Source of the DNA: Bifidobacterium sp. ESL0728
Lineage (GTDB): Bacteria > Actinomycetota > Actinomycetes > Actinomycetales > Bifidobacteriaceae
DNA length: 64,000 nucleotides
Assembly (NCBI RefSeq): GCF_029392015.1
Contig: NZ_CP113925.1
Span: 1,178,001-1,242,000, forward strand
Direction of reading: 5' to 3'
The notes under the pieces were generated by a model that did not search any database, was not told the DNA's origin, and saw nothing but the letters and a program-made list of their open reading frames with translations. The first letter of the stretch is position 1. Each line of letters opens with the position of its first letter. Shown here one piece after another: positions 5,025 through 15,479 of this stretch. Made by a program: the position numbers and the translations under genes.

Positions 5025-6446
5025 ATGGATACCCTGACCGTCGCCACCGTGGTTGTGCTCGTTATCGTGGCGGCACTGCTGGTGTGGCTGTCGCTCATGA
5101 TGGCTTCGAGCGAATCCGCCGTTTCGCGTGTTACCAAGGCCAGCCTCAACAACCGGATTATCGAGATCCAGACCGATGATGAGGATCTTGGCAAATTCGT
5201 ACAGGCCAAGCAGATCCGCAAGGTCCACAAGGTGCAGCGGCTCATTGTAGACCGTTACGCCACGGCCGGTTCCTGCGCGTTCTTTCGGATTTTCTGCAAT
5301 GTGTTTGACGGGGTTTTGGTCGCGATTATCGTCATGTTGCTTTCCGAGCCGGTTTGGGTCGCATTGGTTACTGGTGTGATTTTTGCGCTGATTGTCGCGG
5401 TGGTGTCGGTTTTGCTGCGTCCGCGTTCCGCCGGTGCCTCCAAACCGCTCGACGTGATGATGAGATTCTCCAGCATCATTTCGCTGGCCGTTGTCCTGAC
5501 ACCGTTCGCCAAAGCGGGAGAAGGCAAGGAACAGCGTCGTAGAGACAAGGAAGACGAGCTTTCCGACGACGAGGAGCTTGAGAAAATCCAACGAGAGCAG
5601 GGGCGTGCGACCATCGACCGGTTGGTCGAAACCGATGATTTTGACCCGGAAGTGGCAGAAATGCTGCGCAATGTCTTGATGCTTTCCGACACGTTGACCC
5701 GCGAGATCATGGTGCCCAGAACAGACATGATCTGCGTCGAATCCGATTCCTCGCTCGAACATTTCCTGCAACTTTGTTCGCGTTCCGGCTTCTCGCGTAT
5801 CCCGATTATCGGTGAGGATGTCGATGACTTGGTCGGCATGGCCTATCTGAAGGATGCTGTACGCGCAACAGCCTTCAATCCGGAAGCCCGAACCCGTGAG
5901 GTCAAGTCCATTTGCCGTCAGCCAATGCTGGTGCCGGAATCCAAGCCGGTTGATGATCTTTTCCACGAGATGCAGCGCACGCGCCAGCATGTGGCCGTGG
6001 TGGTCGATGAATACGGCGGCATCGCGGGTCTGGTCACCATTGAGGACGCCATCGAGCAGATCGTAGGTGAGCTGGAAGACGAGCACGACCGTATCCAGCA
6101 CGCCGAGCCCAAGAAGATCGGCGACCACAAGTGGCAGATGCCCGCCCGCACGCCTATCGCCGATCTTGAGGAATTGTTTGAAGTCGATATCGACGAAGAC
6201 GATGTGGACACCGTTTATGGCCTTTTGACCAAGTTGCTTGGCCGTGTGCCGATTGTTGGTATGAGCGCGGTAACACGAGGCCTACGCTTGACCGCTGTCG
6301 ATTCCGCTGGTCGCCGTAAAAAGGTCTCCACTATCGTGGTTGAGCCTGCAACGCTTGACATGGCTGAAAAGCAGGATGAAGACGATGACGAAGAAATTAA
6401 TCGAGATAAGAATCAGGACGTAAAGGAAAACGAAAAGCATGACTGA
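5025..6446 (+). CDS. CorC/HlyC-type membrane protein with CBS domains
   Basis: Membrane protein of 473 residues of the CNNM/CorC (hemolysin-C) family, thought to act in Mg2+/Co2+ homeostasis. One transmembrane segment lies at about 5-27, then a cytoplasmic loop and further hydrophobic segments at about 85-130 make up the N-terminal DUF21-like part. A CBS pair (about 220-345) carries the typical MVPRTDM entry and [16 protein letters not shown] second repeat. A CorC_HlyC transporter-associated domain follows at about 355-440. The Asp/Glu-rich tail overlaps the start of era by eight bases. Function in metal efflux is by family analogy only. Confidence 0.88.
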
Positions 6447-7476
6447 TAGCAACAACAACGAACAACAGAGCGGAAGCAAAGAACCGTACCGTTCCGGCTT
6501 CGTGGCCGTGGTCGGTCGACCGAACGTCGGGAAGTCCACGCTGATCAATTCGCTGATTGGCACTCAGGTCGCCATCGCCTCCTCGCGTCCAGAGACCACG
6601 CGTAAGGCCATTCGTGGCATCCTGACCACCGACAATGCCCAGCTAGTACTGGTCGATACCCCTGGTATCCATCGTCCTCGCACGCTGCTTGGCCAGCGTC
6701 TCAACGACGTGGTGGACGAATCGCTGAGTGACGTGGACGAGATCGCATTCCTGCTGCCTGCCGATCAGGAGATCGGGCCGGGGGACAAGCGTATCTTGAG
6801 CCGTCTGCGCAGCGAGTTCGCTCGCAAAGTTGATAGCGGCAAAAACGGCAATGGTTCACAAAACAACAAGCAGAAAAGTGACCACGAGCAGGGCAAGTTC
6901 GTCTGGAAAGTGCCGCTGATCGCCATTGTCACTAAAATCGACGAGCTCAACCGTCAGGAGCTGATGGCCAAGCTCATCGAGATCAGCCAATTCGCCGACT
7001 TCACCGATGTGGTTCCGGTCAGTGCGCTGGAGCGCGATAATGTCGCCGAGGTCAAGCGTGTGCTCATCGAGAACATGCCCGAGGGCCCGCAGATGTATCC
7101 CGATGACCAGATCACCGAGGAAAAGCCGGAGGACACCATCGCCGAATTGGTACGTGGCGCGTTCCTTGAAGAATTGGATGACGAGCTGCCGCATTCGCTG
7201 GCCGTGGTTGTGGACTCCATCGACCGGCCTGGTGAATCCGACAATCCCGAAACCGAGGACGGCAAGGCGCACGTCATGGTCTCCATCTATGTCGAACGCG
7301 ACTCCCAGAAGCCCATCATCATCGGCCACCGCGCCGAGCACCTGGTCCAGGTCAAGAAGCGCCTGCGCACCGCCGTCAACCGCATCGTAGGCCAAAAGTC
7401 CAAGCTCGACCTCCACGTCAAGGTCGCCAAAGGCTGGCAGTCCGACCCCAAGCAGCTGGAGCGTTTGGGGTTCTAA
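6439..7476 (+). CDS. era: Ribosome-assembly GTPase Era
   Basis: Era GTPase of 345 residues that binds the 3' end of 16S rRNA during 30S assembly. The G1 motif GRPNVGKS (about 26-33), G3 DTPGIH (about 73-78) and G4 TKID (about 165-168) are intact, and the C-terminal KH domain contains IIIGHRAE. It is longer than the roughly 300-residue norm because of a polar Gly/Asn/Lys/Gln-rich insertion at about 131-155 inside the GTPase domain. The last 227 bp (7250-7476) recur as a diverged copy at 15253-15479, so the 3' end seems to have been restored by the incoming island. No terminator follows the gene here. Confidence 0.96.
   Translation: MTDSNNNEQQSGSKEPYRSGFVAVVGRPNVGKSTLINSLIGTQVAIASSRPETTRKAIRGILTTDNAQLVLVDTPGIHRPRTLLGQRLNDVVDESLSDVDEIAFLLPADQEIGPGDKRILSRLRSEFARKVDSGKNGNGSQNNKQKSDHEQGKFVWKVPLIAIVTKIDELNRQELMAKLIEISQFADFTDVVPVSALERDNVAEVKRVLIENMPEGPQMYPDDQITEEKPEDTIAELVRGAFLEELDDELPHSLAVVVDSIDRPGESDNPETEDGKAHVMVSIYVERDSQKPIIIGHRAEHLVQVKKRLRTAVNRIVGQKSKLDLHVKVAKGWQSDPKQLERLGF
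7250..7476 (+). repeat. Left direct repeat: era 3' end
   Basis: This 227-bp stretch is the 3' end of the intact era gene and matches 15253-15479 without gaps. By eye there are about 17 substitutions, nearly all at third codon positions, with one amino-acid change (Gln to Pro) and a TAA versus TGA stop. Two such copies bracket 7.8 kb of accessory genes. Confidence 0.95.
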
Positions 7477-7507
7477 GAGTAAGTGGCATTATATTGAGGT
7501 AGATTAC

Positions 7508-8473
7508 TTAATCAGTTTGTGGATTTTTGTGGATTGGCGGCTCTTTGAGCAATATCTGGGCGACGGTGTCGGTGGTAATGAGACATGTTGCCAGGCCGGA
7601 AAGGCAAATTGCCCTGATTGCATTTGATTTCTCTTTGCCGCCCGCCAAAAAAACAACGATTGGTGTATTGCGTAATTCCTCAACATTTATTGATATTCTG
7701 CGTTCGTTGATTGGCAGATTTAGATAATTACCAAACTCGTCAAAGAACATTCCCCCACATTCCGCGATAGCTCCCATTTTGTTGAGTTTCTCTGCATCTT
7801 CCGGAGAAATATGTTGCTCAAGTTGTGTCACTCTGGGGTTCCAAGATCCTATTGACAAAAAAGCCATGTCAAGCTTTGAATAATAAGAAAGGGTTTCTGC
7901 GACAGCTGGTTCCATCTTTGTTACCATGGCTGATGTTGAGGTGGGCGAAAATAGTGGAGCGAAAAGTGCTTTGGCAGAGGAACCTGAACCAATTGTCATT
8001 TGATTAAGAATCGCTATCGGAGATTGTGAGGGGTCGTTGCCGACCACTCCTGTCAATTGCACAAAAGTGGCCCTCGGCAGATTGGAGATATGTCGGGCGA
8101 TTGGTAGCAAGGTTCTACCCCATGAAAAGCCAATGGATTCGCCTTCGTGGATATGTTCCATAAGGTATTTTGCTCCAGCTTCTCCGAGTAGGTCGCGTTC
8201 CACTGAAATATCATGTGAGCTTGGCACAATGATGACTTGTTTGAGGCCTAAATGTTGTCGTAGATGTTGGGAAAGTTCAGGTGAAGTCGGAGAATCGTCG
8301 TGGATTTGGATGCTGACAACGCCTTTATTACGTGCTTCTGCGATGAGTCTTGCTACTTTAAAACGTGATAATTCCAAAGATGACGCGATTTCTGATTTGG
8401 TCTCGTCGCAAATATAAAAACGTCTCGCGATTTCACCAAGTAATGCGTTGTCTTCCTGTTGTCTGTCATCCAT
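7508..8473 (-). CDS. SorC-type sugar-responsive transcriptional regulator
   Basis: Regulator of 321 residues. The N-terminus has a helix-turn-helix (about 27-47, SEIASSLELSRFKVARLI) and the remainder is the SorC/DeoR-like sugar-phosphate binding domain, with the GFSWGRTL and QLTGVVG stretches typical of the family. Members bind phosphorylated sugars and usually regulate the adjacent catabolic operon. It is read divergently from the ABC importer operon across a 183-bp region containing two palindromes. The effector is probably a phosphorylated product of the island's kinase, which is inference. The gene is noticeably A/T-rich compared with era. Confidence 0.88.
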   Translation of the reverse strand: MDDRQQEDNALLGEIARRFYICDETKSEIASSLELSRFKVARLIAEARNKGVVSIQIHDDSPTSPELSQHLRQHLGLKQVIIVPSSHDISVERDLLGEAGAKYLMEHIHEGESIGFSWGRTLLPIARHISNLPRATFVQLTGVVGNDPSQSPIAILNQMTIGSGSSAKALFAPLFSPTSTSAMVTKMEPAVAETLSYYSKLDMAFLSIGSWNPRVTQLEQHISPEDAEKLNKMGAIAECGGMFFDEFGNYLNLPINERRISINVEELRNTPIVVFLAGGKEKSNAIRAICLSGLATCLITTDTVAQILLKEPPIHKNPQTD

Positions 8474-8554
8474 GATTATGCTCCAGATATCTGTTGATTA
8501 TATCTATGTTGTTTTATTTATATACAACCTTTTGAGATTTATGATATAACAATT

Positions 8555-8568
8555 TGCTCAAATGAGCA
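8555..8568. promoter_or_regulatory. Candidate operator palindrome upstream of sugar operon
   Basis: TGCTCA-AA-TGAGCA is a perfect 6-bp inverted repeat with a 2-base centre. It lies between the divergent regulator and importer genes, just upstream of the predicted -35 box. It is a plausible binding site for the SorC-type regulator. Confidence 0.5.
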
Positions 8569-8579
8569 TAAAATACTAG

Positions 8580-8608
8580 TTGAACTCACATTCGAGTGCA
8601 TCTATATT
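8580..8608 (+). promoter_or_regulatory. Predicted sigma70-type promoter of the sugar operon
   Basis: A TTGAAC -35 box (8580-8585) and a TATATT -10 box (8603-8608) are separated by 17 bases, the optimal spacing, and point toward the permease gene starting at 8657. The expected start of transcription falls near 8615. Confidence 0.6.
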
Positions 8609-8614
8609 ATATTT

Positions 8615-8624
8615 TGTTCGAACA
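8615..8624. promoter_or_regulatory. Second palindrome at the predicted transcription start
   Basis: TGTTCGAACA is a perfect 10-base palindrome at the predicted +1 of the sugar operon. A repressor bound here would block initiation. It differs in sequence from the palindrome at 8555, so either it serves another regulator or one of the two is fortuitous. Confidence 0.4.
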
Positions 8625-8656
8625 GTCGGTTTAAGAGAACGAGCGAAGGAGCTTAT

Positions 8657-9676
8657 ATGAAATCTCGTTTTAAAATGCCACAGGAGTTAGGTGTACTCAT
8701 CGTGGTGCTTCTGGTCGCGGTCCTTATGGGGGTTCTGTCTCCGGAGTTCCGCACCGCAAGCAATCTTCAGGTGCTGTTGCTTAACGGATCGGTCGTCACG
8801 TTCCTGGCCTTGGGGCAGGCCTGCGTTCTGTTGACCGGTGGCATTGATCTGTCTGTCGGTTCCAACATCGCCTTGACCGGTATGATTGCGGCTCTGGCGA
8901 TGCGTTCCGGCCTTTCTTGGTGGGTTGCCGCTTTGTTGGCAATCGTCACTGGAATCGTCGTCGGTCTCTTCAATGGTGCAGTTATTCATTATGGTCATAT
9001 GCCTCCGTTCATTGTAACGTTCGCAACGTTCGGTATTTCCGCCTCCATTCCTAAGATTCTGACCCAGGCGAAATCGGTGACGGTTTCCGACCCGATGTTT
9101 GCCTTCTTCGGCAGGGGCAGCCTCTTTGGCATTCCGATGCCTATCATCATGGTCGTCATCGCGGCTGTGATAATCGGTGTGGTGCTTAGTAACACCGCAA
9201 CGGGTGTCCATGTCTATGCGGTCGGTGGCAACGCCGATACCGCCAGACTTTCGGGAATCAATATCGCTCGGACGACGATTTTCGTCTACGTTGTCTCCGG
9301 TATTTGCGCTGCATTCGCCGGTATCATCACCGCTTCGCGTCTGATGGTCGGCTATCCTACTGCAGGTTCCGGCAACGAACAGTTCTATTCCATCGCTTCG
9401 GCAGTGGTTGGAGGCGTGAGCCTCTTTGGTGGAGTCGGAACGATTCTCGGTGCTTTCATCGGTTCCTTGCTGATTGCCGAGGTTTCCAATGGCATGAACG
9501 TTATCGGCGTAGACAGCTACTGGCAGCCCCTCGTTATTGGTGTCATCATTCTTGTCGGCGTGTTGTTCGACACCAACAAGTCCCGTATCTCGTTCGGCAG
9601 GAAGAAGCATCTTGAAGCCACCTCGGCGTTGGTTGAGGAAGCCTCAAAGGTTGATGCCGAAAAAGACAACAAGTAA
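8657..9676 (+). CDS. Sugar ABC transporter permease (RbsC-like)
   Basis: Hydrophobic protein of 339 residues with about eight to ten membrane segments, of the ribose/galactose-class (carbohydrate uptake type 2) permeases. The stretches GQACVLLTGGIDLSVGS and VYAVGGNADTARLSGI are family hallmarks. It would form the membrane channel of an importer with the binding protein and double ATPase that follow. GAAGGAG precedes the ATG by five bases. First gene of the predicted operon. The polar C-terminal tail is unremarkable. Substrate is a monosaccharide or polyol by family, not determinable further. Confidence 0.92.
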   Translation: MKSRFKMPQELGVLIVVLLVAVLMGVLSPEFRTASNLQVLLLNGSVVTFLALGQACVLLTGGIDLSVGSNIALTGMIAALAMRSGLSWWVAALLAIVTGIVVGLFNGAVIHYGHMPPFIVTFATFGISASIPKILTQAKSVTVSDPMFAFFGRGSLFGIPMPIIMVVIAAVIIGVVLSNTATGVHVYAVGGNADTARLSGINIARTTIFVYVVSGICAAFAGIITASRLMVGYPTAGSGNEQFYSIASAVVGGVSLFGGVGTILGAFIGSLLIAEVSNGMNVIGVDSYWQPLVIGVIILVGVLFDTNKSRISFGRKKHLEATSALVEEASKVDAEKDNK

Positions 9677-9729
9677 GAATATTCATTAGAAAGTAAAACA
9701 AGAAAGTAAATATAAGAAGGAAGAAAATC

Positions 9730-10734
9730 ATGACCAGAAATTTCAAAAAACTATTGACACTGTGCCTCGCGCCGATTTTCGTGATGCCGCTCGTCGCGTG
9801 CTCGGGAGTGAACTCCGGAGTGACGGATGCCAAAAAAGAGAGTGCTGAACTCAAGGCACCGGCTTCATGCAATGTTTCTGACCCGCTGATTGCGGTATTG
9901 ATGCCAAACCAGACAAACCCGTATTACGTCGCTATGAAGCAGGGCTTTGAAGAAGAAGCCAAGGCAAAGGGCATGAAGACGGAAGTATTGATTGCGGAAG
10001 ACGACGATGCCAAGCAGCTTTCCCAAGCTGAGGCCGTAATCCAGAAGAAGCCCTGCGCTGTGGCTCTCAATCCTGTGAAGTCGGAGCCTGCTGCGGCCAC
10101 CGTCAAGGCATTCAACGATGCCAAGATCCCCGTGTTCACCGTTAACATCTCGGTCGATCAGAAGGCTATGAAGGCCCAGGGCGCTTTCGTACAGCAGTAT
10201 CTTGGAGCCGATAACAAAGAAGGCGGCGAGGTCAGCGCCAACATGGTCCTGAAGGATATGGGCAAGGACGCCAAGCTCAACATCGGCTTCGTCACCGAAC
10301 CTGATGAGGCGGTCTCCGTGGAACGTGACGGAGGCTTCAAGGAGAAGATCGATGCGGACAAGAACGCCAAGGTCGTCGCCAAGGTCGATGGCAACGTGAA
10401 GATTACCGATGCTTTGGACGTCACCACCGATATGCTGCAGGGCAATCCTGATCTCAATGTCATCTTCGCTTCTTCCGGCCCCAACCTTCAAGGTGCTCTC
10501 GAAGCGGTCAACGCATCTGGCAAGGACATCAAGGTTTATGGCTTCTGCGCTGCTGATATCGCCCTCACCGGCAAGTATCAAGGTTGTGTCGCTCAGGAAC
10601 CTGAGGATTATGCCCGCCGTGTGGTCAACCAGATTGTTAACTATAAGAAGTCTGGCAAGGTTCCTCCTCAGATTCTTCGTCCTCTTAAGGAATTCACTGC
10701 AGGCCAGAAGCCACAGCCAGGACAGGTAGGCTGA
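9730..10734 (+). CDS. Sugar ABC transporter substrate-binding lipoprotein
   Basis: Periplasmic-binding-protein type 1 (RbsB-like) protein of 334 residues anchored as a lipoprotein. A signal peptide with basic start and hydrophobic core ends in the lipobox LVAC, giving lipidated Cys24. The mature part starts after an acidic/Ala-rich linker and shows the family's opening MPNQTNPYYVAMKQGFEEEA and the QAEAVIQKKPCAVALNPVK region. It should deliver the sugar to the permease at 8657. Gene spacing (about 53 bp from the permease, 3 bp to the ATPase) supports one operon. Confidence 0.92.
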   Translation: MTRNFKKLLTLCLAPIFVMPLVACSGVNSGVTDAKKESAELKAPASCNVSDPLIAVLMPNQTNPYYVAMKQGFEEEAKAKGMKTEVLIAEDDDAKQLSQAEAVIQKKPCAVALNPVKSEPAAATVKAFNDAKIPVFTVNISVDQKAMKAQGAFVQQYLGADNKEGGEVSANMVLKDMGKDAKLNIGFVTEPDEAVSVERDGGFKEKIDADKNAKVVAKVDGNVKITDALDVTTDMLQGNPDLNVIFASSGPNLQGALEAVNASGKDIKVYGFCAADIALTGKYQGCVAQEPEDYARRVVNQIVNYKKSGKVPPQILRPLKEFTAGQKPQPGQVG

Positions 10735-10737
10735 GGT

Positions 10738-12300
10738 ATGTCGGAAAATAGTGGAAGGGAGTCTTCCATGGATTCCAAAGAAACTCAATGCTATCAAGCA
10801 ATTGGAATCGAAAAGGATTTCGTGGGTGTCCCGGTCCTCCGAGGCGTGTCTCTGACACTGCACCCTGGTGAGATCATCGGTCTCGTCGGGCACAACGGTG
10901 CCGGGAAATCCACATTCCTAAGAGTCCTTTCCGGTGCCCATAAGCAAAGTGGTGGCACACTCAAACTTGATGGTAAGGAAATTTCGTTTGCCAGTCCTTC
11001 GGAAGCGATTGAAAACGGAATTTCCACCGTCTATCAAGAGTTGTCGCTGATGCCGAATCTGACTGTCGCTCAAAACATGTGGCTTGGCAGGGAGCAGCGT
11101 AGTCGGGCTGGTATGCTGCGCAAGAAAGCCATGAGTGATCAGGCGAAGAAGATCATCCAGGGCTTCGGGCTTGATGTCGACGTGGAGCATCTGGTCGGTT
11201 CGTACTCGGTGGCTACCCGACAATTGTTGGAGATCGCCATCGCCTGCAGCAAGAACACCAAGTACTTGCTGCTTGATGAGCCGACGACTTCGCTTGAAGG
11301 CGATCAGGTGACTGCGTTGATGGATTATCTGAAGCAACTGGCGAAAAAGCAGAATATCGGTATCCTCATCGTCAATCACAAGCTTGATGAGCTCTATCAG
11401 GTTGCCGACAGGATTGTGGCTTTGATGAATGGTCGTGTGGTCATCGATGCCTCTACTGCCACGGTTGATCGTGATGCTGTTGTCACCGCAATCGCCGGCG
11501 CGGATTATTCCAATTCCAAAGGGACCCAAAGCAGGGAAAGCACCACTGCTAAAGATTCCGGGAAAGTCACTCTGGAAGTCGATCACATCAGGGGAGGAGT
11601 GCTTCGCGATATCAGTTTCAAGGCAAAATCGGGAAGGATCCTCGGAATCTATGGCCTCGGAGGGGCCGGCAAGAGTGAGACCCTCAGAGCCATAGCAGGT
11701 GTGGCACCGGCGGAGGCGGGGAAGATTACCGTAAACGGTGATAACTACGCTCCCAAGGTTCCCAAAGATGCCATGAAGCGTGGCGTCGCATTCCTGACGG
11801 AAGAACGGAAAAAAGACGGCATTGTTCCACTGATGAACAGCTATCAGAATGTTGGTCTTCCCGTCTTGAAGCGATACGAAAAAAGCGGCTTCCTCAACAA
11901 GGACAAAATGAAAAAGGATACAGGGAGCATTCTCGATGAGCTTGGGCTCAAGGGAAGTCCCGAAAATCCTGTTGAGTCGCTTTCCGGTGGCAATCAGCAA
12001 AAGGTACTGTTGGCCAGAACCTTGGCTCAACGGCCTAACATCCTCTTGCTTGATGAACCGAGCAAAGGCGTCGATATCGGCGCCAAGGAGGAGATTCATA
12101 CCATTTTGCGTTCCTTGGCCCATGAGAAAGGCATGACTGTTGTCATGGTTTCTTCCGAGGAAGAGGAAATCCTCGATGTTTCTGATGAAGTCATCGTTCT
12201 GGGTGAGGGTAAGGTCCTTGCAGGTCCTCTTCCAGTTGGTTCGGTTTCAGAGTCGTCATTGAGGAAACTCGCTTGGACCGAAGACAAGGAAGGCGCGTGA
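10738..12300 (+). CDS. Sugar ABC transporter double ATPase (RbsA/MglA-like)
   Basis: Two fused ABC ATPase domains in 520 residues, the usual size for this class. The first has Walker A GHNGAGKS (about 51-58) and Walker B LLLDEPTTS. The second has the characteristic degenerate P-loop GLGGAGKSE, signature LSGGNQQKV and Walker B LLLDEPSKGVD. It energises the importer. The annotated ATG follows the binding-protein stop by three bases. A second in-frame ATG at 10768 has a better spaced GGGAG and may be the true start, giving 510 residues. Its TGA overlaps the next ATG. Confidence 0.93.
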   Translation: MSENSGRESSMDSKETQCYQAIGIEKDFVGVPVLRGVSLTLHPGEIIGLVGHNGAGKSTFLRVLSGAHKQSGGTLKLDGKEISFASPSEAIENGISTVYQELSLMPNLTVAQNMWLGREQRSRAGMLRKKAMSDQAKKIIQGFGLDVDVEHLVGSYSVATRQLLEIAIACSKNTKYLLLDEPTTSLEGDQVTALMDYLKQLAKKQNIGILIVNHKLDELYQVADRIVALMNGRVVIDASTATVDRDAVVTAIAGADYSNSKGTQSRESTTAKDSGKVTLEVDHIRGGVLRDISFKAKSGRILGIYGLGGAGKSETLRAIAGVAPAEAGKITVNGDNYAPKVPKDAMKRGVAFLTEERKKDGIVPLMNSYQNVGLPVLKRYEKSGFLNKDKMKKDTGSILDELGLKGSPENPVESLSGGNQQKVLLARTLAQRPNILLLDEPSKGVDIGAKEEIHTILRSLAHEKGMTVVMVSSEEEEILDVSDEVIVLGEGKVLAGPLPVGSVSESSLRKLAWTEDKEGA

Positions 12301-12902
12301 TGGCTGAAAATAATCACGATAACGATATAGCAGAAATCAAGAATCTCATTCGAGGAGAGTCGAAGGCCGTCGCCGATCTTGAAGGTGTCTTTGATGACAG
12401 CTTTGAGAAGGTGGTGGATATGGTCTCTTCCGCTCAGACCGTGCTTACCACTGCTGTAGGTAATTCCGGTGCGATCGCTTCTCGAATGGCTCATGTTCTT
12501 GCGCTGTGTGGTGCGCCTGCTTTTTATCTCAACTCCGATTTGGCTCTTCATGGGTCTGTCGGGGCGGTAAAAAGCGGTGACGTGATTATTGCGGTGAGCA
12601 AAGGCGGTGTGACCGATGAAGTGAATGATTTTGTGAAACTGTCGCTTGACGCCGGTGCCAAAGTCGTCGCTGTAACGCAATCACCTGAATCACCGTTGGC
12701 CAATATGGCGACTATGGTCCAGGCATTGCCCCATACGGATGCTGACCCTGAGGGTTATATCGGTATGGGAACCTCGTTGGCGCAAGCCGCTTGGGGTGAT
12801 GCCTTGGCCTTGGCTATTCATCTGAGACGTGGTGAAAACGCCAAGGACATCGCTTCCCGGCATCCGGCTGGTTTGGTCGGTAAGTTATCGCGTTCTGTCT
12901 GA
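12300..12902 (+). CDS. SIS-domain sugar-phosphate isomerase (KpsF/GutQ-like, no CBS)
   Basis: Single SIS domain of 200 residues. The order GNSGAIASRMAHVLA, LHGSVGAVKSGDVIIAVSKGG and the closing RHPAGLVGK mirrors arabinose-5-phosphate isomerases of the KpsF/GutQ family, whose catalytic His lies in the corresponding LHG and HPGG motifs. The CBS pair of the long forms is absent. It may interconvert an aldose and a ketose phosphate, for example arabinose 5-phosphate and ribulose 5-phosphate. A 6-phospho-3-hexuloisomerase activity is an alternative. Translationally coupled to the ATPase gene (TGATG). Exact substrate is inference. Confidence 0.82.
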   Translation: MAENNHDNDIAEIKNLIRGESKAVADLEGVFDDSFEKVVDMVSSAQTVLTTAVGNSGAIASRMAHVLALCGAPAFYLNSDLALHGSVGAVKSGDVIIAVSKGGVTDEVNDFVKLSLDAGAKVVAVTQSPESPLANMATMVQALPHTDADPEGYIGMGTSLAQAAWGDALALAIHLRRGENAKDIASRHPAGLVGKLSRSV

Positions 12903-12981
12903 TTCATGTCAGAGAAGGTTAATTGGAGAGTTTCGTTGTTCCATCGAAGATGAGTCGGTGGAACAACGAAAGGAGGATAAT

Positions 12982-14475
12982 ATGGCAACACTGGTCATGG
13001 GGGTCGATTCCTCCACACAATCATGCAAGGTTGAATTGCGTGATGCCTTTGATGGCAAACTTGTGGGCCATGGAAAATCGCCTCATCCTTCGACCAAACC
13101 TCCGAAAAGCGAACAATATGCTTCTGATTGGTGGGATGCGCTCGTCAAGGCAACCCACCAGGCAATTGACGGATTGCAAGAAGGATATTGTGCAAATGAT
13201 GTATTCGCGATTTCGATTTCGGCTCAATGTCACGGATTGGTGATGTTGGATGAGAACGATACGGTTATCAGGAAGGTGAAGTTGTGGAACGATACCACGA
13301 CTTCGCCACAGAATGACGATCTTATTCGTTCTATCGGAAAAGAAGAATGGATCCATCTTGTCGGTTCGTTGCCGACGGCGGCTTTTACGGCCTCAAAAGT
13401 CGCGTATATGGCTCGAGAAGAACCTGAAATCTGGAAACGTGTCAAGACCGTCATGTTGCCACACGACTATCTGACGTTCAGGTTGACAGGACGTTACACC
13501 ACAGATCGTTCCGATGCCTCAAATACTGGCTATTATGATTCTTTCAATAGCCGTTATCTTCCCGAAGTCTTCAATATGGCGGTGGATGGGGACGGGCCTC
13601 AACTTGAAGATATAAACCTTCCTGAAGTGCTAGGGCCAGAAGAGTCTGCGGGAGTCTTGTTGGATCAACCTGCCAAAGAGCTTGGGCTACGTTCGGGTAT
13701 CAAAATTGGGCCCGGTGGTGGAGATCAAGAGGTTTCTTCGTTGGGATTGGGTATCCTGCCCGGTGATTTGGCACTCTCATTGGGTACTTCGGGTGTAACC
13801 TTTACTGTTTCTCAGAAGCCTATTTACGATGATACAGGTTTGGTAAATGGTGTTGCGGATGCTGCGGGAGGATGGTTGCCGCTGACATGTGTACTCAATT
13901 GTGCGCAGGTGTTCAGTATTGTAGCTTCATGGCTAGGAGTTGGCTTAGAAGAGCTTAACGTCCTTGCTTCAAATGCACCTACCAATGCCGAGCGTCCGAT
14001 TTTTGTCGCTTATCTAAATGGGGAACGTACTCCCAATCTTCCACTGGCAACGGCTTCTATCAGTGGACTGACCAGCGATACCACTCGGGAGTCTCTGGCG
14101 TTGTCTCTTGTCGAAGGCATTGCAATGGGAATGGATTCTGGTAGGCGTGCCATGATTGATGCAGGTGCCCAACTTGACGGCACAATAATTGCAACGGGCG
14201 GAGCCATGCATTCGCCTGCTTTTTTGCAGGCGCTTGCGGATTTCATGGGACAGGATATTTGTGGAACTGACGTTGAGCAGGCTGTGGCCCGAGGAGCTGC
14301 TATACAGGCAGCGGCAGTGCTCCGCGAGGAAAAGGTTACGGAAGTGCGTAATCAATGGAAGCCGAAAAGGACGGTTCTGGCTTCGCCTCGTTCAGTGGCT
14401 GTGAGTCATTCTGATGAAGTAATCGAAAGATATCGTATTGCTTCGAAATGGAGAGGATTAGATCGGAATGAGTGA
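12982..14475 (+). CDS. FGGY-family carbohydrate kinase (xylulokinase-like)
   Basis: Kinase of 497 residues with both FGGY actin-like domains. The N-terminal GVDSSTQSCKV is the phosphate-binding loop. SAQCHGLVMLDEND, LWNDTTT, LPHDYLTFRLTG and TDRSDASNTGYYD resemble xylulokinases, and GGGDQEVSSLG carries the predicted catalytic Asp. LSLGTSGVTF is the ATPase phosphate-2 motif. I place the start at 12982, five bases after a perfect AGGAGG, discarding a longer open frame from 12829. The family also includes ribulo-, ribitol- and erythritol kinases, so pentulose is likely but not proven. It overlaps the next gene by eight bases. Confidence 0.9.
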   Translation: MATLVMGVDSSTQSCKVELRDAFDGKLVGHGKSPHPSTKPPKSEQYASDWWDALVKATHQAIDGLQEGYCANDVFAISISAQCHGLVMLDENDTVIRKVKLWNDTTTSPQNDDLIRSIGKEEWIHLVGSLPTAAFTASKVAYMAREEPEIWKRVKTVMLPHDYLTFRLTGRYTTDRSDASNTGYYDSFNSRYLPEVFNMAVDGDGPQLEDINLPEVLGPEESAGVLLDQPAKELGLRSGIKIGPGGGDQEVSSLGLGILPGDLALSLGTSGVTFTVSQKPIYDDTGLVNGVADAAGGWLPLTCVLNCAQVFSIVASWLGVGLEELNVLASNAPTNAERPIFVAYLNGERTPNLPLATASISGLTSDTTRESLALSLVEGIAMGMDSGRRAMIDAGAQLDGTIIATGGAMHSPAFLQALADFMGQDICGTDVEQAVARGAAIQAAAVLREEKVTEVRNQWKPKRTVLASPRSVAVSHSDEVIERYRIASKWRGLDRNE

Positions 14476-15109
14476 AGTGCTGTCTCGCATCATATCTCAA
14501 GCCCCACTTACCATATCAGGAAGCATACTTGCTGCGCCGAGCAAAAAGCGAATTTCCTATGCCAAGGATTTATACGATTCTGGAGCATGGATTCATATTG
14601 ATTTTATTGATGAAAGTTATCCTCTGTCTGTTGGTGTCGACCCGGGGGTTCTCAAAGAATTAAAGGTGTTTGCAGACAGACTTGAGGTGCACCTCATGGT
14701 TTCTGATATGTTGCAATGGGTCAGAAAGCTGGTCCCATTCCATCCTCGACGAATCATTGTGCAACATAGTGAAACCCTCAATATCGGGAATTTGATAAGT
14801 ATGAAGCAACTTTTGAATCGCAATAACATCGAGATGTGGATTGGAGCCAATCCATCTGACTATCCAGAACAGATTTCTGAATTTATTACACAGTCAGATG
14901 GTATGTTGCAGATGTTGAGCAGTCCTGGAACACCTAATACGATTGCTGATTTTGACATATTGCCAAGATTGAAGGAAATCCATAAACCGATGACGGTTGA
15001 CGGAGGGGTGTTGCTTTCTTCGTTACATGATATCTCTAGCGCCGGGATTCATAATGCTGTGGCAGGCCGCAATTTGTGGAAAGAATATTTAAATCTTGAA
15101 AATAAATAA
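14468..15109 (+). CDS. Ribulose-phosphate 3-epimerase-like protein (divergent)
   Basis: TIM-barrel epimerase-family protein of 213 residues. The metal ligands of ribulose-phosphate 3-epimerase are kept: His43 and Asp45 in WIHIDFID, His75 in VHLMV and Asp178 in VDGG. The phosphate loop usually written NPGFGGQ is replaced by SSPGTPN, and the N-terminal SGSILAAP differs from the usual PSILSAD. This suggests a changed substrate, for example another pentulose phosphate or, as in AlsE, allulose 6-phosphate. Last gene of the predicted operon and A/T-rich. Catalysis is supported by the ligands; substrate is unknown. Confidence 0.8.
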   Translation: MSEVLSRIISQAPLTISGSILAAPSKKRISYAKDLYDSGAWIHIDFIDESYPLSVGVDPGVLKELKVFADRLEVHLMVSDMLQWVRKLVPFHPRRIIVQHSETLNIGNLISMKQLLNRNNIEMWIGANPSDYPEQISEFITQSDGMLQMLSSPGTPNTIADFDILPRLKEIHKPMTVDGGVLLSSLHDISSAGIHNAVAGRNLWKEYLNLENK

Positions 15110-15252: not shown

Positions 15253-15479
15253 AAACCGAGGACGGAAAGGCGCACGTCATGGTCTCCATCTACGTCGAAC
15301 GCGACTCCCCAAAGCCCATCATCATCGGTCACCGTGCCGAACATCTGGTGCAGGTCAAGAAGCGCCTGCGCACGGCGGTCAACCGCATCGTCGGCCAAAA
15401 GTCCAAACTCGACCTCCACGTCAAGGTCGCCAAAGGCTGGCAGTCCGACCCCAAGCAGCTGGAACGATTAGGGTTCTGA
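15253..15479 (+). pseudogene. era: era 3'-end remnant (right direct repeat)
   Basis: The frame encodes the last ~75 residues of Era (KH-domain C-terminus) with a single amino-acid difference from the intact gene, but the GTPase domain is missing. Homology begins abruptly at 15253, preceded by A/T-rich island DNA. Because it ends right before a terminator, it is probably the resident era tail displaced when the island arrived with its own tail. An internal ATG could yield a 66-residue peptide, but there is no convincing ribosome site. Confidence 0.93.

Follow-up and report, generated by a model that had tools for sequence, protein, structure and literature searches.

A predicted sugar-catabolic operon of a recurrent type, tentatively assigned to D-ribulose, inserted beside era in Bifidobacterium sp. 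ESL0728

Introduction

Several described systems resemble the subject of this study, a seven-gene cassette in a 64,000-nucleotide stretch of DNA from Bifidobacterium sp. ESL0728 (the window; positions 1178001-1242000 of the 2.59 Mb genome). The Escherichia coli allose system, alsBACEK-rpiB, combines a CUT2 importer, a kinase, an aldose-ketose isomerase and a 3-epimerase of the RPE superfamily, as the cassette does. It uses AlsK, a ROK kinase, and RpiB where the window has an FGGY kinase and a SIS isomerase, and its epimerase AlsE carries the loop PGFAGQ. The Rbl operon of Citrobacter rodentium (ROD_24811-61) contains genes for an ATP-binding cassette (ABC) importer, an FGGY kinase and a KpsF-like isomerase. 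Reporter assays, growth tests and deletions indicate D-ribulose as its substrate (PMC12307932). As in the window, a CUT2-type importer, the kinase and the KpsF-like SIS protein are encoded in one operon. In an engineered pathway, arabinose 5-phosphate isomerase, Rpe and phosphoketolase act one after another (PMC9947464), whereas the window cluster is a natural operon known from sequence.

The window genes appear to form a sugar-catabolic operon of a recurrent type. Its kinase with QCHG/GDQ motifs, its RPE-like protein and its SIS isomerase are each a sister form of a known enzyme, and the three are found together repeatedly in other bacteria. We read it as a horizontally acquired catabolic cassette that would feed a five-carbon ketose, most likely D-ribulose, into the phosphoketolase pathway, a reading that we consider plausible yet somewhat short of probable. 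The analysis turns a loose triplet of enzymes into a defined, testable pathway. Any genome can now be searched for its kinase signature, its epimerase subfamily, its SIS clade and its operator.

Results and discussion

Gene content and insertion of the cassette

The cassette (7508-15109) consists of a divergent regulator gene and co-directional genes for a permease, a binding protein, an ATPase, a SIS isomerase, an FGGY kinase and an RPE-like protein. Its features and the flanking repeats are as follows.

7250-7474, plus strand: 3' end of era, which is the left-hand member of a 225-nt repeat pair in direct orientation (93% identical to 15253-15477)
7508-8473, minus strand: sugar-binding transcriptional regulator of SorC/DeoR type, transcribed away from the operon (Pfam PF04198, Sugar-bind, 186 bits)
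8556-8567, no strand: palindrome GCTCAAATGAGC, the only such site in the window and probably the operator of the SorC-type regulator
8657-9676, plus strand: ABC permease (BPD_transp_2; Pfam match)
9730-10734, plus strand: sugar-binding protein (Peripla_BP_4) with altered ligand pocket (Pfam match, alignment to 2ioy, model)
10738-12300, plus strand: ABC ATPase with two ATP-binding domains (family searches)
12300-12902, plus strand: KpsF/GutQ-type SIS isomerase without CBS domains, 200 aa, assigned to a catabolic sister clade (family searches, tree)
12982-14475, plus strand: FGGY kinase, 497 aa, assigned to the QCHG/GDQ sister clade of xylulokinase (family searches, motifs, tree)
14468-15109, plus strand: RPE-like 3-epimerase of a divergent subfamily with MLxxPGT and GRxL (family searches, motifs, model)
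15253-15477, plus strand: second, displaced copy of the era 3' end, the right-hand member of the direct repeat pair (93% identical to 7250-7474)

All of the named genes are present as open frames. Gene calls in this high-GC DNA were made by a simple open reading frame picker, and presence was re-checked by tblastn. The ATPase stop overlaps the isomerase ATG at 12300, and the kinase end at 14475 overlaps the RPE-like start at 14468. An earlier kinase start, at 12829, was judged spurious because relatives begin at the later site, 12982. Family searches found no CBS domain in the isomerase. The original prediction for this DNA, covering 8657-15109, had named a ribose-class importer, a CBS-less KpsF/GutQ-type isomerase, a xylulokinase-like enzyme and an RPE-like protein acting in one pathway. 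These family labels were borne out and the genes are where it placed them, and the neighborhoods described below support a single pathway; its range left out the divergent regulator. Each family label is right by these searches, yet every protein appears to be a divergent member of its family.

The cassette lies beside era (6439-7476), whose product reaches 327 bits against the NCBIfam GTPase Era model (cut-off 237). The final 225 nt of the gene are repeated downstream, the translated right copy resembles the Era C-terminus, and the 7.8 kb between the copies is the cluster. Because a copy of the era 3' end brackets it, the cluster is an inserted cassette.

It is rare among close relatives. At E <= 1e-40 the binding protein was found in three of 112 genus genomes. 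The RPE-like protein was found at E <= 1e-60 in three of 189 family genomes, which are the window genome and two sister genomes, G101 and G097 (about 50% identity). A further 57 family genomes match it weakly at 1e-3, at no more than 28% identity among the matches listed. A search of genome contigs with an RPE-like trio gave 34 pattern matches and no relatives, the two peptide patterns being strict. Over 396 phylum genomes the same trio was found in two, the window genome and G432, which has an RPE without the cluster. An RPE-like profile matched 303 of these 396 at 1e-15; this count is uninformative on prevalence because the threshold admits canonical RPEs, including the window genome's own housekeeping enzyme at 4.5e-20. 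Three plasmid records matched the RPE-like protein, and in one of them (Rhodococcus opacus) the match adjoins a relative of the kinase.

The kinase clade and its neighborhood

The kinase scores 398.3 bits against TIGR01312 (XylB), above the cut-off of 380.25, and is homologous to xylulokinase over nearly its full length (e.g. PDB 3i8b). Automatic annotation therefore probably calls it a xylulokinase, a name that its motifs and neighbors do not support. XylB has QQHG or QMHG together with GDN, whereas the window kinase has QCHG with GDQ. The Asn of GDN is presumably, from human XK, a contact of D-xylulose. We compared the motifs of 96 FGGY kinases from 97 candidates (L001 yielded none). QCHG/GDQ was found in 20 and QQHG/GDN in 74, with one case each of QGHG/GDN (L078) and QQQG/GDC (L144). 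The 20 signature kinases fall on one side of a branch with support of 89/89, recovered in 88% of 200 bootstrap trees; the tree holds 45 chosen rows and carries a long-branch warning for RblK, LyxK, EcoXylB and L078. We place the window kinase in a clade that is sister to xylulokinase. The genome's other FGGY enzyme, L002, has the xylulokinase motifs QQHG/GDN.

Neighborhoods were compared in the best 80 of 590 loci from a scan on two kinase peptides, and the contrast describes that set. The signature was present in 17 of the 80, and neighbors were counted by tblastn at 1e-8. An RPE-like gene lies near the kinase in 12/17 signature loci and 0/63 others, a KpsF-like SIS gene in 10/17 and 0/63, and a SorC-like regulator in 14/17 and 3/63. 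Xylose isomerase shows the opposite distribution (0/17 against 50/63). In the set examined the gene association is far beyond chance, and a chance neighborhood was rejected. Kinase, SIS-fold isomerase and RPE-like protein occur together in ten of the 17 signature loci. The three enzymes had been described as not usually found together, and a search for the same triplet in other neighborhoods had been proposed; the triplet proved recurrent. The rarity claim also conflicts with the combination of ABC importer, FGGY kinase and KpsF-like isomerase already reported for Rbl (PMC12307932).

Three signature loci (L105, L108 and L111) encode a PHI-like protein instead of the KpsF-like SIS, which brings SIS-fold isomerases to 13/17. 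L106 gave a fourth tblastn PHI match and was read as a KpsF-like SIS. The signature loci without a SIS-fold isomerase are L103 (a 7.9 kb contig), L104, L113 and L114. PHI-like (HxlB) proteins stand where other loci have the KpsF-like SIS at L105 12343, L108 14148, L111 12335 and L076 11192, and an HPS query had no match at these four loci.

A sorbitol-dehydrogenase-like gene is found within the flank in 12/17 signature loci and 5/63 others, and directly 3' of the RPE-like gene in 11 of the 17. The clusters of Mycolicibacterium type (L107, L109, L116, L119 and L120) share the SorC-type regulator, SIS, signature kinase and RPE-like protein with the window. They differ in having another binding-protein subtype, 21-23% identical over the alignment, and additional MDR/SDR dehydrogenase-like genes. 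The closest solved structures to the L107 dehydrogenase are sorbitol dehydrogenases, and the L107 binding protein, from Mycolicibacterium, matches PDB entries 4rsm, 5hko and 4rs3 (E <= 2.2e-174). The ligands in these entries are presumably D-threitol, xylitol and L-sorbitol. The structural match and the position of the dehydrogenase suggest that in those loci the kinase substrate is probably a ketose derived from a polyol.

These neighbors raise the possibility that the window cluster also imports a polyol (xylitol, D-arabitol, ribitol or a tetritol), which a dehydrogenase encoded elsewhere would oxidize before phosphorylation. We consider this very unlikely. Within the stretches compared, no dehydrogenase match was found in the window cluster, in L110 or in the metagenome-assembled genomes (MAGs) L106 (a short contig) and L112, which have a common transporter subtype. 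The best match to the dehydrogenase in the window genome is 36% identical, against 56-86% between the cluster enzymes and that of L107. Pentitol import, one of the candidates first put forward, is unlikely because the cluster is without the mycobacterial polyol-dehydrogenase-like gene and its best match in the genome is this distant. In the passages searched of a study of M. smegmatis on xylitol no such locus is named (PMC11303327). Arabitol in Bacillus methanolicus is the subject of another study (PMC6685057).

Sister genomes and the regulator

The two sister genomes link the same transporter to other enzymes. Relative to the window, their loci (L034 in G101, L035 in G097) are 70% identical in the regulator, 91-92% in the permease, 78 and 80% in the binding protein, 77-79% in the ATPase and 48-49% in the RPE-like protein. 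The transporter genes are followed by genes for HPS and PHI, both above their NCBIfam cut-offs (HPS TIGR03128, 263.5 and 257 bits, cut-off 200). Their kinase differs from that of the window and groups with L002 of the window genome (100/100). Modules have thus been swapped between the window genome and its sisters. Two kinases of the xylulokinase branch are thereby paired with one transporter, so the imported sugar is probably a pentulose. HPS and PHI share an operon with the transporter at 1888-5477 in L034 and 9921-13502 in L035, placing ribulose-monophosphate enzymes in a probable anaerobe. HPS above the cut-off occurs in two of the 112 genus genomes and was not found in the window genome, so HPS-based chemistry was rejected there.

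Where the window genome has its cluster, the chromosome of G101 carries an intact SIS gene (81%) and an intact kinase gene (82%) (L045 8206-10853). Upstream of this pair are remnants of the permease (16 and 25 residues, 81 and 64%) and the regulator (36 residues, 56%), and a possible, weak remnant of the ATPase end (12 residues, E 0.089). This locus is apparently a decayed copy of the window cluster.

The operon is probably under the control of its own SorC-type regulator. A 20-base pattern around GCTCAAATGAGC with at most three mismatches has a single match in the window (0.02 expected). The relaxed palindrome GCTCANNTGAGC has ten sites in the 441,685 bases of 23 related loci, where base composition predicts 0.46. 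No locus has more than one site, each site lies in front of the first gene of its operon, and 13 of the 23 loci have no exact site. Three sites were found in 63 other loci (1,131,810 bases). These counts are descriptive only, because the pattern was found first in bifidobacterial loci and then relaxed. Sites in loci with ordinary xylulokinase motifs are at L129 7726, L131 1977 and L172 10387, and a SorC-like gene is present in two of these three loci, L129 and L131. In G101 one copy of the palindrome stands before the transporter operon and another before the distant SIS-kinase pair, which links the two units. A survey of regulators in ten Bifidobacterium genomes mentions SorC, and ribulose and D-arabinose are absent from the passages searched (PMC4746261).

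The isomerase

The window isomerase scores 89.9 bits against TIGR00393 (KpsF), below the cut-off of 203.7, a weak test because the model is 268 long and the protein has 200 residues. Thirteen catabolic SIS sequences form one clade (100/98) separate from KdsD and GutQ. We take K59, H88, E111, E152 and H193 of KdsD to be active-site residues of arabinose 5-phosphate isomerase. All 13 sequences keep H88, E111 and H193 and have N, D or T at K59. E152 is absent from 12 of the 13, L072 being the one that keeps it; the alignment around this position is loose. In the window protein K59 is replaced by N and E152 by D.

A rival reading has D-arabinose as the main substrate. The kinase would form arabinose 5-phosphate, the SIS protein ribulose 5-phosphate and the RPE-like protein xylulose 5-phosphate for phosphoketolase, with all three enzymes obligatory. 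This scheme uses every gene of the operon, and the chain from arabinose 5-phosphate isomerase through Rpe to phosphoketolase functions both in vitro and in E. coli as part of the engineered pathway (PMC9947464). A Bifidobacteriaceae MAG (L112) adds a further parallel. At 6503-7180, after the kinase and at the usual place of the RPE-like gene, it has an FSA/transaldolase-like protein that keeps D6, K85, Y131, R134 and S166 of FsaA and has Thr for N28. FsaA is the arabinose 5-phosphate aldolase of the engineered pathway (PMC9947464). The L112 protein is far below FSA cut-offs (94 against 246 bits), however. In addition, FGGY kinases normally take ketoses or polyols rather than aldoses, the K59 and E152 positions of the SIS are changed, and the dehydrogenase-like neighbor in 11 of the 17 signature loci implies a ketose as kinase substrate. 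We consider D-arabinose unlikely as the main substrate, although it is the next candidate after D-ribulose.

The epimerase

The RPE-like protein scores 57 bits against PF00834, above the cut-off of 21.1, and 57.3 against TIGR01163 (rpe), below the cut-off of 212.6. The canonical RPE encoded elsewhere in the genome reaches 245.4 bits where the cluster protein reaches 56.5. H43, D45, H75 and D178 are kept, and the corresponding metal ligands of RPEs, as we assume the His, Asp, His and Asp to be, are invariant in all 13 aligned sequences. These 13 also share MLxxPG and GRxL in place of PGFGGQ and GSAIF; the window protein has PGTPNT for the PGFGGQ loop and AGRNLW for AGSAIF. Its AlphaFold model (mean pLDDT 91.7) has its best structural alignments with RPEs (4nu7, Z 23.9, rmsd 2.5, 199 aligned). 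RPEs and AlsE are tied over ranks 1-16 (Z 21.9-23.9, AlsE 22.7), and one further RPE scores 19.0. The predicted fold and the metal ligands thus appear to be retained, and the substrate is inferred.

The tie with AlsE bears on whether a ketohexose (such as D-allulose, D-sorbose or D-tagatose) could be imported, phosphorylated at C6 and epimerized at C3, as by AlsE, to fructose 6-phosphate or tagatose 6-phosphate, with the SIS protein serving the matching aldohexose. The logic would be that of E. coli alsBACEK with rpiB, RpiB being the isomerase of the allose pathway. The AlsE model NF007266 gives the RPE-like protein 33.5 bits, a match that is nevertheless below those of RPE models (62.8 and 57.3). 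Leucobacter relatives with PfkB-type and class II aldolase genes, described below, suit a ketohexose better. On the other side, the kinship of the kinase and the HPS of the sister genomes indicate pentulose phosphates, and fructose 6-phosphate enters the bifid shunt without HPS or PHI. We consider a ketohexose unlikely as well.

The transporter

Importer function is assigned by family. Ten positions of the binding protein were aligned to the ribose-binding protein 2ioy, and these we take to be the ribose contacts of RbsB. Five are altered (D89N, R90I, F164V, N190S and D215C), F15 and F16 are replaced by Tyr, and N13, R141 and Q235 are unchanged. A true ribose importer was rejected because the ligand pocket is changed. 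The model of the binding protein (pLDDT 84.0) has a ribose-type fold with a best Z of 30.4, and many ribose-type binding proteins tie in Z, so the model does not distinguish the ligand.

A proposed route for D-ribulose

Taken together, the enzymes point to ribulose 5-phosphate. KpsF-type isomerases interconvert it with arabinose 5-phosphate, RPE interconverts it with xylulose 5-phosphate, and HPS uses it. The pentulokinase kinship of the kinase, the RPE-like protein, the KpsF-type isomerase and the HPS of the sister genomes would normally converge on this intermediate. This convergence and the example of Citrobacter Rbl, the one functionally described system that combines such an importer, an FGGY kinase and a KpsF-like isomerase, make D-ribulose the best single choice. 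The earlier candidate list lacked it, whereas D-arabinose and ketohexoses such as allulose keep their place there as rivals.

In the proposed route, the binding protein, permease and ATPase would import the sugar. The FGGY kinase would phosphorylate it at C5 to D-ribulose 5-phosphate, and the RPE-like protein would epimerize C3 to give D-xylulose 5-phosphate. Cleavage of xylulose 5-phosphate by phosphoketolase is established for bifidobacteria, and the genome has one match to the XFP phosphoketolase family, whose product would take over here. Xylulose 5-phosphate, the exit predicted earlier, is likely, and that earlier route is supported in part. The KpsF-like isomerase may convert arabinose 5-phosphate, or an aldose phosphate like it, to ribulose 5-phosphate and back. 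This reaction would provide a side entry, through which D-arabinose phosphorylated by the same kinase would join the route. The SorC-type regulator would act at the GCTCANNTGAGC palindrome and be released by a pathway sugar phosphate. Since the genome has a separate xylulokinase-type enzyme (L002) and a canonical RPE, the cluster would be an accessory route.

Several observations weigh against D-ribulose. The isomerase has lost the lysine and the glutamate of KdsD, and the epimerase has lost PGFGGQ and has Arg for the Ser of AGSAIF; either enzyme may therefore act on a different substrate. The presumed ligands of 4rsm, 5hko and 4rs3 do not single out ribulose. In Leucobacter L113 and L114 (around 7159-10450) a kinase of the signature clade directly follows a class II aldolase-like gene and is accompanied by a divergent PfkB-type gene, both named from sequence, and tblastn found neither a SIS nor an RPE-like gene. 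A ketohexose therefore suits these loci better. In Citrobacter the KpsF-like isomerase is dispensable on D-ribulose and D-ribose induced weakly (PMC12307932).

The comparison with Rbl was made with a stand-in, Duffyella gerundensis L079, which is Rbl-like by gene content alone. The window kinase is 22.5% identical to that of L079 and the SIS 32%. Also against the assignment, the L079 kinase is a distant FGGY protein without QCHG/GDQ, and its SIS falls outside the SIS clade. L079 further differs by a second permease and by the annotation of its binding protein as autoinducer-2 type, and no RPE-like or SorC-type gene is annotated in its stretch. We suggest that the cluster works like Rbl by analogy, and do not count it as a member.

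If D-ribulose is the substrate, the bifidobacterial route would add a commensal competitor to enteric pathogens; its use in the mouse gut by two such pathogens was reported in 2025 (PMC12307932). If the isomerase acts on arabinose 5-phosphate, the cluster would be a natural version of the engineered pathway (PMC9947464). A bolder proposal combines these elements. The QCHG/GDQ kinase, the RPE-like protein with PGT and GR and the K59-less SIS would make up one conserved pathway that has a SorC-type operator of its own and has spread by transfer. The window branch would be a natural route from arabinose 5-phosphate through ribulose 5-phosphate and xylulose 5-phosphate to phosphoketolase, and the two sisters would couple the transporter to HPS and PHI, that is, to formaldehyde-linked ribulose-monophosphate chemistry in a probable gut anaerobe. 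As a whole we think this improbable. Among the papers listed in searches of the open-licence PMC literature, no account of the QCHG/GDQ kinase clade, the RPE-like subfamily or the cluster could be recognised.

Other related loci

The gene order of the window is found again in Tessaracoccus L110, with a regulator, permease (66%), binding protein (52%), ATPase (49%), SIS, kinase (46%) and RPE-like protein. The last has no Pfam family at 1e-3 and was assigned by its motifs and 31% identity to a Rhodococcus protein (E 5e-19). All seven families are also represented at a Rhizobium plasmid locus (L072), where the kinase has a broken frame and the motifs QGHG/GDN, the SIS lies inside the SIS clade, and the RPE, without the GR motif, is nearer the canonical family (100.7 bits). 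On a Pantoea plasmid (L078, 7989-17368) a xylulokinase-like gene with QGHG/GDN occurs with a similar importer, back to back with genes for a galactitol-type phosphotransferase system, RPE, SDR and PHI.

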